From the NCBI GenBank assembly GCA_003859965.1, contig RQYR01000011.1, positions 62,001 through 126,000 on the forward strand: a stretch of 64,000 bases of DNA, in the 5' to 3' direction. Of this stretch, positions 58,252 to 60,675 are shown in pieces; within the stretch, counting starts at the first letter, position 1, and each line of letters starts with the position of its first letter. The DNA is from Comamonadaceae bacterium OH2545_COT-014 (GTDB taxonomy: Bacteria > Pseudomonadota > Gammaproteobacteria > Burkholderiales > Burkholderiaceae_C). The translations under genes were made by a program, and so were the position numbers. The notes beneath the pieces are model-generated. The model saw only the letters and a program-made list of their open reading frames with translations. It searched no databases and was not told where the DNA came from.

Positions 58252-58281
58252 ATGCGCCTGATGTCCTGCACTTTCTTCTGA
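58252..58281 (+). CDS. Candidate 9-residue leader minicistron
   Basis: GGGAGG (58238-58243) lies eight bases before ATG 58252. The open frame codes MRLMSCTFF and stops at 58279-58281. It is followed by a CGCTCCA/TGGAGCG hairpin (58286-58310) and an intrinsic terminator (58350-58385). The strong ribosome site for so short a frame suggests a regulatory uORF or attenuator. I do not recognise the peptide. A stand-alone small RNA between promoter and terminator is the alternative. Confidence 0.45.
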   Translation: MRLMSCTFF

Positions 58282-58349
58282 CGCCCGCTCCATCCGCCCC
58301 GGCTGGAGCGAAAGCGGCGTCGCCACTTTTTTCCAGCCCGCGGGCCCGC

Positions 58350-58385
58350 AAAGCCCCGGCTGCCCTTTCCTGCCGGGGCTTTTTG
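58350..58385 (+). terminator. Intrinsic terminator (attenuator) before the AAA+/M41 operon
   Basis: AAGCCCCGGC / GCCGGGGCTT (10 bp, 11-base loop) is followed by TTTTT. It lies about 75 bases upstream of the next gene start, so read-through is needed from the promoter at 58109. Confidence 0.85.
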
Positions 58386-58460
58386 CTTGGCCGGGCCGCT
58401 TGCCGGGCGCATTCGCCCCGCCTGCCCTGCGGCCCGCCCAGGCATTCGCATGGAGCGCAC

Positions 58461-58712
58461 ATGAGTGCCAAAACCTTCTCGCGCGAGTGGCTGCAAAGCC
58501 CCGCGCAAGGCAACCTGAAAAAACTGCAACGCATGCGCCAGCCGCTGGCGCTGGGCGCGGCCGCGCCGCCGCCGCGCAACCACGTGGCGTTGGCGCTGGC
58601 CGCGCGCAGCGCCTCCAACGCGGCAGGCAAGCACATCCGCCAAACGGGCGCGCAGCGCCGCGCCGACAAGATGGCCCTGCAAAAGCTGCTGCGCCAGACG
58701 GGAGATGAATGA
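58461..58712 (+). CDS. Small basic protein upstream of the AAA+/M41 protease
   Basis: The 83-residue protein (MSAKTFSREWLQSPAQGNLK...) is rich in Arg, Lys, Ala and Gln and has no recognisable domain or membrane segment. Its stop overlaps the start of the next gene by eight bases, so the two are translationally coupled. It may be an adaptor or partner of the protease; I do not know the family. Confidence 0.7.
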   Translation: MSAKTFSREWLQSPAQGNLKKLQRMRQPLALGAAAPPPRNHVALALAARSASNAAGKHIRQTGAQRRADKMALQKLLRQTGDE

Positions 58713-60675
58713 CATGAACGAAACCGAGACCGCAACCGCCCGCCCTTCCACCCCCGCTGCGGCCGATCCGGCCCTAGCCCAGCGCATGGCCGCGCGCCAG
58801 CAGGCGCTGGGCCGCATCGCGGCGGAGTTGAAAGAGGAGCTGTTCGGCATTGACGACGTGATCGACCGCGTGATTGACGCCGTGCGCGCCTGGTGGGTGT
58901 TGCCTGAAATCATCACCCGCCCGGTGATCGTCTGCCTCTGGGGCCTGACGGGCACCGGCAAAACCCAGCTCACGCGCCGTCTGGCACAGAAGATGGGCTT
59001 TTACGACCGCTTCGTGGAAGTGCAGATGGACGGCTTCAGCCACGGCTGGGACGGCGCGCGCGCCAGCATTGCGGCCATGCTGGACGACTCGGGCATCGCC
59101 GAAGGCGAGCCGGGCATCTTGCTGCTGGACGAATTCCAGCGCTACCGCACCATCGACGACAAGCGGCGTGACCTGAAGGTGGAACGTTTTCAGGACGTGT
59201 GGACACTGCTGTCCGACGGTCGTCTGCCGCCGGCGTTGTCGGCGCTGGAAAACATTGGCTTCCGTCTGGCGCAGGCACAGTACGACGCCGCACGCGAACG
59301 CGAAGACCGCGAGGACGACGATGACGCCAAGCCGCCCCGTGCCCGCCAGTTCCGTCTGGATGCCTGGGACGCGCGCGAACTCAAGCGCGCGCTCAAACTC
59401 GCCGAGCCGCTAACCACCATCATGGCCTGGCCGCCTGAGCAGGTGCAGGCCCGCCTGCACGCCTTCCGCCGCCAGAGCGAACGCTGGGAAACCGACTACA
59501 GCCGCCTGCTCATCTTCGTCACCGGCAACCTGGACGAGATGTACGAGCACATGGCCCAGCGCGTGCAAGACTGCGACACCGACGCCGACATCTTTCACGC
59601 CATGAGCCGCAAGCTCACCGTGATCGACGTGAAAGCCGCCCTGGCCGAGCGCTTCCGCCCCGAGCAGGTGGCGCGTCTGGGCAACCAGCACATCATCTAC
59701 CCTTCGCTCAGCCGCGCCGCCTACCAGCGGCTGATCGCGCACAGCGCCGCGCAGTACGTACGCGAAGTCCAGGCCCGCTCAGGCCTGCGCTTTGCCATTG
59801 GCGCGCCCGTGCTGGCGGCCATCTATGACAACGCCGTGTACCCCGCGCAAGGCACGCGCCCCGTGTTCTCCACCGTGCATGCCGTGCTGGGCAGCCCGCT
59901 GGTCGATGCCGCGCTGTGGGCGCTGGAACGCAGCGTGCCCGCCCACGCCACGCTCGACGTGACCCTGGCCCCTGGCGGTCAGGCGCTGGCCATGCACTGG
60001 CAGGGTCAGACCCTCACACTGCCCGTGCCGTTCGACCTGCACGGCCTGCGCCAGCGCGCTTCGCTAGACCTGCGCACCCTGCTCGCCGTACATGAGGCCG
60101 GGCACGGCCTGGCCTACGCGCTGCTGCTGGGCGAAGCGCCACAGGAAGTGCGCATCAACGTGGCCTCGTTCGAAGGCGGCTACAACAGCTTCGTGCCGCG
60201 CAAGGCGTGGTCGCGCCGCATGTGGCGCGCCATGATCTGTGTCACCCTGGCGGGCCGTGCTGCCGAAACCCTGGTGTTCGGCCCCGAGGCCGTCACCACC
60301 GGCGCCGAGCACGACTACCAGCAAGCCACCCGCGATGCCGCCCGCGCCGTGCGTCACCACGGCTTCGGCCAGCGCGTCAGCCGCACCGACGTGGCCCAAG
60401 GCGCGGATGAGAACCTCAACACCGACGTGGCGCCCACCAACGCCGAGATCGAAACCCTGCTGGCCGCCGAGCTGGCCCGCGCCCAGGCCCTGCTGGCTAA
60501 ACACCGCACCGCCTTGCGCGCTTTGGTCGAGCACCTGCTCGCCCACGGCAGCGTGGCGGCTGCCGACTTCGCCCGTATCAGCGGCATCCCCGCGCCCGTG
60601 CCTGGAGCTCAGGGCGGCGCACTGGAGCCTTGGCACGAGAAATGGCAAGCCTTCGCCGCCACCCTGCAGCCGTAA
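58705..60675 (+). CDS. Fusion of a Clp-like AAA+ ATPase and an FtsH-type M41 peptidase domain
   Basis: The 656-residue protein has an AAA+ module resembling Clp/HslU: LFGIDDVIDRVI, Walker A GLTGTGKT (80-87), Walker B ILLLDEF (Asp142, Glu143), a sensor-1-like IFVTGNLDEMY and FRPEQVARL with the arginine-finger pattern. The C-terminal 200 residues form an M41 peptidase: zinc motif HEAGH (463-467), SFEGGYNSFVPRKAW, AGRAAETLVFG, TTGAEHDYQQAT (third ligand Asp537) and RAVRHHGFGQ. FtsH has this peptidase with its own AAA and membrane helices; here no membrane segment exists and the ATPase resembles the Clp lineage. It should act as a soluble ATP-dependent metalloprotease. Substrates are unknown. Confidence 0.85.
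   Translation: MNDMNETETATARPSTPAAADPALAQRMAARQQALGRIAAELKEELFGIDDVIDRVIDAVRAWWVLPEIITRPVIVCLWGLTGTGKTQLTRRLAQKMGFYDRFVEVQMDGFSHGWDGARASIAAMLDDSGIAEGEPGILLLDEFQRYRTIDDKRRDLKVERFQDVWTLLSDGRLPPALSALENIGFRLAQAQYDAAREREDREDDDDAKPPRARQFRLDAWDARELKRALKLAEPLTTIMAWPPEQVQARLHAFRRQSERWETDYSRLLIFVTGNLDEMYEHMAQRVQDCDTDADIFHAMSRKLTVIDVKAALAERFRPEQVARLGNQHIIYPSLSRAAYQRLIAHSAAQYVREVQARSGLRFAIGAPVLAAIYDNAVYPAQGTRPVFSTVHAVLGSPLVDAALWALERSVPAHATLDVTLAPGGQALAMHWQGQTLTLPVPFDLHGLRQRASLDLRTLLAVHEAGHGLAYALLLGEAPQEVRINVASFEGGYNSFVPRKAWSRRMWRAMICVTLAGRAAETLVFGPEAVTTGAEHDYQQATRDAARAVRHHGFGQRVSRTDVAQGADENLNTDVAPTNAEIETLLAAELARAQALLAKHRTALRALVEHLLAHGSVAAADFARISGIPAPVPGAQGGALEPWHEKWQAFAATLQP

Follow-up and report, generated by a model that had tools for sequence, protein, structure and literature searches.

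The gene at positions 58705 to 60675 (plus strand, as are all window features below) of the window, the 64,000-nucleotide stretch of Comamonadaceae bacterium OH2545_COT-014 DNA analyzed here, encodes a protein of 656 residues in which a Clp-type AAA+ motor is fused to an M41 peptidase, as seen from its open reading frame, domain searches and predicted structure. A sequence-only reading of this DNA had proposed a Clp-type motor and an FtsH-type M41 peptidase in one soluble chain, and profile, tree and motif analyses supported this proposal. By the same three lines of evidence the motor, which is ClpA/ClpB D2-like, is other than that of FtsH, although the AU test stops short of rejecting the FtsH grouping (p 0.089). 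The protein belongs to a conserved family; it co-occurs with a small basic gene, and this gene is preceded by a conserved leader with alternative complementarities. Taken as a whole, we consider it probable that the fusion is a cytosolic ATP-dependent zinc protease of bacteria and huge phages, accompanied in the window's family by a leader-controlled partner, possibly an adaptor.

Architecture of the fusion protein

The AAA+ module covers approximately residues 30 to 433 (58792–60003) and carries a large insert in its pre-sensor-1 hairpin (approximately residues 176 to 260). Pfam detected AAA at residues 76–151 (E 1.3e-6) and, after the AAA+ module as had been claimed, M41 at residues 457–624 (60073–60576; E 9.4e-22, 78.2 bits for a cut-off of 29.9). 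Alignment A4 comprised the window protein and 41 of the 46 distinct viral members described below; omitted were L138, L140 and L160, which possess M41 and HExxH, as well as L137 and L161. Assignment to M41 rests on the Pfam score together with HExxH and the distal Asp, found in 42/42 rows; M41 was detected in all of these members at E 0.001, and ClpB_D2-small in 27 of them at the same threshold. Residues G83, G85, K86, T87, D142, E143, N275, R324, R385, H463, E464, H467 and D537 are identical in the 42 rows. The positions proposed for Walker A (80–87), HEAGH (463–467) and Asp537 were confirmed. As regards the arginine finger, the sequence-only reading had placed it in an FRPE motif. R318 of this motif is R or K in the relatives and was discarded as the finger, while an arginine does occupy the finger position: the invariant R324, which we take to be the equivalent of the ClpB arginine finger. 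The pore-loop aromatic F111 is variable in the alignment, which is a point against the mechanism proposed below.

The predicted structure of the protein (pLDDT 87.7) was subjected to a structure search, a check suggested with the sequence-only reading, which returned the ClpB NBD2 fold for the motor and the FtsH fold for the peptidase. The highest mean Kyte-Doolittle hydropathy over 19 residues was 1.35, versus 2.32 for E. coli FtsH, and did not exceed 1.88 in the relatives. Because of this low maximum no membrane helix is apparent in the protein, which bears out the earlier claim, and the N-terminal transmembrane helices of FtsH were not found by this measure. The same genome encodes a separate and complete FtsH (900.9 bits) as well as homologues of ClpA, ClpB and ClpX, and the fusion is therefore an extra protease. 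Searches against the anti-phage defence proteins of PADLOC gave only weak matches limited to the motor (best 5.7e-5) and no match spanning the protein; a defence-system identity was rejected on this basis.

The partner gene and its leader

The gene at 58461–58712 encodes a basic protein of 83 residues (pI 11.9) and, as the sequence-only reading had noted, overlaps the protease gene by 8 nucleotides. Pfam, NCBIfam and PDB searches of 28 members of this partner family gave nothing convincing (best E 0.029, 0.048 and 0.73, respectively), and a ribosome-rescue factor of the ArfA kind was rejected, no such family being among these results. The single-sequence fold consists mainly of a C-terminal helix (pLDDT 68 overall). 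The gene shows a coding signal: synonymous changes make up 64% of the single-change codon differences versus 26% expected, in sequence pairs that are not independent of each other.

Conservation of the gene pair was examined. Of 37 loci, that of the window among them, 28 have the partner upstream of the protease, so that the pairing is more than chance; three of the nine loci where it is absent lie at or near contig ends or are fragments. It is situated at most 22 nucleotides from the protease in 19 of the 28 loci, and the same 8-nucleotide overlap occurs in 8 of them (window included), the start codons in these counts being chosen by script. The examined flanks of the loci of a second order (see below) and of the viral contigs contained no partner, except for two short viral contigs (L105, L106), where the partner core stands just before the protease. 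At E 0.001, a partner match was obtained in 45 of the 299 genomes sampled from the window's family; 28 were strong (E no higher than 1.9e-26, followed by 1.6e-12) and 17 weaker. The strong partner is present in 25 of the 31 protease-positive genomes versus 3 of the 268 protease-negative ones (Fisher p 1.3e-27). These three genomes (G011, G197, G314) carry it without the protease, three others (G164, G183, G257) have weaker partner-like matches and lack a protease in the vicinity, and three protease-positive genomes of one genus (G173, G265, G334) have a weaker partner elsewhere in the genome, unlinked. Since there are loci without the partner and partners without or away from the protease, the partner is tightly associated with the enzyme and is not an obligate subunit.

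Upstream of the partner, the region 58252–58460 forms a conserved leader, which contains a short ORF and can adopt alternative pairings. The leader ORF (58252–58281) has nine codons, MRLMSCTFF followed by TGA, and a GGGAGG ribosome site; in 27 of the 28 partner-bearing loci the ORF has 7 to 11 codons, a conserved GCCCCGGCTG-like element comes after its stop, and the ribosome site is mostly good. The post-stop strand (58282–58296) can pair either with a local strand (58304–58310) or with the Shine-Dalgarno region of the partner (58450–58460). Furthermore, the element GCCCCGGC (58296–58303) can form eight pairs, two of them compensatory among 24 aligned loci, with GCCGGGGC at 58372–58379, an arm situated near the partner. 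A terminator-like hairpin with a T run was read in the sequence at 58350–58384, between the leader ORF and the partner; a hairpin scan found a shorter stem (58362–58379), one of four such sites in the region versus 2.6 expected. The T run after the GCCGGGGC arm recurs in many loci, including the window, and is absent in L080 and L081.

Complementarity between the post-stop strand and the Shine-Dalgarno region was evaluated by exchanging strands between 27 loci. The mean energy was −11.9 kcal/mol within the own locus versus −8.5 kcal/mol after the exchange, and none of 10,000 permutations was as good, nor was any with the 21 distinct strands, a signal to which kinship of the loci could contribute. 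The local pairing ranged from −8.9 to −17.4 kcal/mol, as calculated without permutation. Segment 58274–58327 of the window folded with a z of −3.84, and ten segments folded alone span −1.02 to −5.26; in a 127-nucleotide window segment, the first hairpin gives way to other pairs. On the short leader alignment RNAalifold predicted no pairing, and the leader model R1 was consequently sequence-only. L026 has no leader, and the leader alignment A5 does not include L025, L069 and L079. The model matched 68 of the 299 genomes at E 0.01, 28 of them strongly (at least 31.6 bits, the next at 22.3). These genomes coincide exactly with the 28 that have a strong partner, with one match each at 50 to 259 nucleotides upstream of it. 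As 25 of these matches are rows of the model, a fair test is provided by the three genomes that have the partner alone and by the absence of strong matches in other genomes. The partners that are weaker and unlinked are likewise preceded closely by weak leader matches (15.9 to 20.0 bits). A scan for heat-shock promoters before the partner, made with what we took to be the sigma-32 consensus, showed no excess, with a mean best score of 8.3 of 12 in the 28 loci versus 8.2 in shuffles, and such a promoter was rejected.

Attenuators of the erm type control translation by a short leader ORF and an alternative pairing able to mask a downstream ribosome site. The leader of the partner appears alike in its short ORF and alternative pairing, as judged from complementarity and conservation; it differs in what stands downstream, namely a small basic protein gene and a protease gene, and Rfam returned no family at gathering score in the window. 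In the mechanism that we favour, translation of the leader ORF would decide whether the post-stop strand folds locally or masks the ribosome site of the partner.

The small gene and its leader might instead form an independent unit that is a mere neighbour of the protease. Such a unit would fit the three genomes where the leader and a strong partner occur without the protease, the three more where weak versions lie apart from it, and the spacing, since only 19 of the 28 pairs are as close as 22 nucleotides by the script-chosen starts. However, the skew of the strong partner towards protease-positive genomes and the recurrent 8-nucleotide overlap argue against it, and we regard this explanation as rather doubtful compared with that of a partner of the protease.

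Occurrence in bacteria and on viral contigs

Profile searches (cut-offs of 1e-35 to 1e-30) covered the phylum of the window. The fusion gene was found in 31 of 299 genomes of the window's family, its own genome included, and in 21 of 141 genera; one copy is a fragment and one is split. The order sample (1/300) and the phylum sample (1/299) yielded the window's genome only. The class sample (2/274) added one further genome, in the order of which 13 of 63 genomes were positive. A genome scan of all phyla with one single sequence found two loci, both FtsH, and no match to the window protein was detected at 1e-5 among 72,556 plasmid records. Two gene clusters, which we take to be hrpA and argA, recur in 13 loci each around the chromosomal copies, pointing to an old chromosomal site. 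As for individual copies, the main gene is split over two frames in G020:C22 (L008, L029), a TGA is reported within its matched frame in G007:C71 (L005), and one genome holds two copies (G192:C64 and G192:C59), which are 60% and 53% identical to that of the window, a partner match being absent beside the second.

In IMG/VR, profile A3 detected 60 loci on 60 contigs, many of which exceed 100 kb; 46 are distinct at 90% identity, and HExxH is present in 58 of the 60. The largest contig has 547,943 bases and the next 478,840; the frame used on the former (L137, 548 kb) has M41 and HExxH, with Walker A absent. L161 and L162 encode a motor-only relative of 479 residues, with no M41 in the reading frame. 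Hallmark genes were sought in 34 records hand-picked among the longer contigs, two of which (L154 and L163) are near-copies. A terminase match was found in 14 and a tail-sheath match in 8 (4 over the cut-off), so that 17 records have at least one of both types; the remaining 17 could represent fragments, viruses of another kind or DNA of cellular origin. In both the motor and the M41 trees the cellular members are interspersed among the viral ones, and two host-type changes suffice for the M41 tree (L105 left out). Among 50,697 records of named phages the window protein had no match at 1e-5. Two viral relatives gave partial matches to 6 and 25 of these records, none covering 80%; the records are mostly unannotated, and the annotated ones are FtsH or metalloprotease. 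The matches of a BFVD search were mostly FtsH-, Clp- and Lon-like proteins or viral proteins without a name, and none could be clearly recognised as the fusion.

Several viral loci have characteristic neighbours. In L147, L152, L155 and L159 the protease is followed, at a distance of up to about 5 kb, by genes for DnaK and DnaJ, which makes a phage chaperone-protease cluster (DnaK was Pfam-checked in L147 and L159 and DnaJ in L147, the remainder being assigned by clustering). A clamp-loader-like AAA gene stands directly upstream of the protease in L108 (7057–8001) and L111 (7051–7995); in L108, a 379-kb contig, it was Pfam-checked and overlaps the protease by 4 nucleotides. In L126 (5391–8002; Pfam-checked in this locus only) and L128 the gene after the protease has a NUDIX domain and the next is NAMPT-like, and in L110 a NAMPT-like gene precedes the protease; this association looks like NAD salvage.

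The frequent occurrence of the fusion on long viral contigs, and the DnaK and DnaJ genes of 4 of the 46 distinct viral loci, would also suit an unfoldase or chaperone whose peptidase serves mainly for limited processing, for example of phage virion proteins, and not for processive degradation. This appears unlikely: the checked motor and peptidase residues are conserved throughout, and the neighbours common to the chromosomal copies are ordinary chromosomal genes.

Relation to known proteases and proposed mechanism

Trees of each domain were built from the window protein, 15 of the 46 distinct viral members and 10 other cellular members; L147 and L152 lack the Walker pattern used, L181 and L103 had truncated D2 pieces that were removed, and L114 is absent from the M41 tree. 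The 26 fusion-family members form one clade in the AAA+ tree (100/100) and FtsH another 100% clade; the M41 tree, with 12 FtsH for comparison, likewise unites the 25 family rows in a single clade (100/100). The two trees recover the same main groups, which agrees with a fusion that arose once and was passed on whole. The family was joined to ClpA/ClpB D2 at 99/98 if Lon and D1 were omitted from the AAA+ tree; with both included, support was just 41/23. AU tests on the AAA+ alignment rejected neither the grouping with FtsH (p 0.089) nor that with ClpX/HslU (p 0.132), and the label Clp D2-like therefore draws jointly on tree, profile, fold and motif. The claim that the AAA+ part is distinct from FtsH thus holds in the trees, but with this limit from the AU test.

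Profile A4 matched the E. coli proteins ClpB, in its D2, with 18.2 and 23.6 bits and FtsH, in its M41 domain, with 88.8 bits; as a point against the main reading, one-block matches of its motor were also obtained with ClpX (18.1), Lon (18.5), HslU (10.1) and the FtsH of phage phi30-3 (10.3 bits). Among the best 60 of 80 matches in a PDB profile search, FtsH-type chains had their best stretch from position 416 on, ClpE, ClpC and ClpB matched the motor, and, again less favourably, classic AAA chains (an AFG2 homologue, MSP1) matched at about 1e-6. NCBIfam FtsH_fam (TIGR01241) gave 57.6 bits for an equivalog cut-off of 600, solely over profile positions 418–595, the M41 part; the ClpA and ClpB equivalogs gave 33.3 and 32.1 bits on the motor for cut-offs of 993 and 1232. 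That the protein is a diverged FtsH, deprived of its membrane anchor and with a motor of only outward Clp likeness, is very improbable, for although the M41 domain is clearly FtsH-related, whole-chain FtsH structures have the highest Z in the structure search (22.1, rmsd 7.2) and the AU test tolerates the grouping, the two families are separate clades for both domains, the motor has the Clp-type pre-sensor-1 hairpin, sensor-2 arginine and D2-small domain, the AAA domain of E. coli FtsH scores just 0.5 bits against profile A4, and the genome has its own full FtsH.

The fusion protease shares with FtsH, m-AAA and i-AAA an M41 domain placed C-terminally to an AAA+ motor in one chain, with the same zinc-site motif and fold, and differs from them in its Clp D2-like motor, an insert of about 85 residues in this motor and no apparent transmembrane helix. 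With the D2 of ClpA, ClpB, ClpC and ClpE it shares the AAA+ core, the pre-sensor-1 hairpin, the D2-small domain and the sensor-2 arginine, whereas it has one AAA+ module and neither N domain nor D1. Unlike ClpP, its peptidase is covalently attached to the motor and is of another class. The FtsH of PA5oct-like jumbo phages (MIJ3, phi30-3) is comparable as an M41 protease in a large phage, as reported for MIJ3 (PMC6892783). That of phi30-3 was ruled out as a member of the fusion family since it is of the FtsH type from end to end (42.7% identity to E. coli FtsH 5–594; FtsH_fam 550 bits, cut-off 600, at 15–570); the MIJ3 protein is known here by description only. An FtsH is predicted in an Erythrobacter phage (PMC9127768), and a survey of 224 jumbo phages names, by term search, ClpP, ClpS, ClpA, ClpX and a MoxR/vWA-metallopeptidase pair and no "FtsH" (PMC7824862). 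This pair likewise brings an AAA+ ATPase and a metallopeptidase domain together in large phages, but by the description in that paper these are two separate proteins of another AAA+ group (PMC7824862). FtsH, Clp, AAA+ and M41 were all absent by term search from PMC13282480, and none of six searched terms was present in PMC7162821. No fusion of a Clp motor and M41 is described in the titles and abstract openings of the open-licence papers searched.

We infer the following mechanism as the best explanation. The Clp-type AAA+ ring, presumably a hexamer, would unfold substrates and thread them into a chamber made of its own fused M41 domains; the job of FtsH would thus be done without a membrane anchor and with a different motor. 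The partner would probably bring the protease to a target or regulate it. A further reading is improbable in all its parts together: the enzymes would form a separate protease class, derived from one joining of a Clp motor to M41 and circulating between huge phages and bacteria, and in the window's family blocked translation of the leader ORF would expose the ribosome site of the partner; this basic protein would then guide the protease to nascent chains or to ribosomes that have stalled.

The ATP-dependent proteases of bacteria are few in textbooks: Lon, ClpXP/ClpAP/ClpCP, HslUV, FtsH and the proteasome. If true, a one-chain Clp-motor/M41 enzyme would show that new combinations of motor and peptidase classes can yield a soluble machine of the FtsH kind. 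The translational control proposed for the leader is directly testable by a simple reporter. To judge from the long phage contigs that bear the fusion, some huge phages may have degradation machinery of their own.
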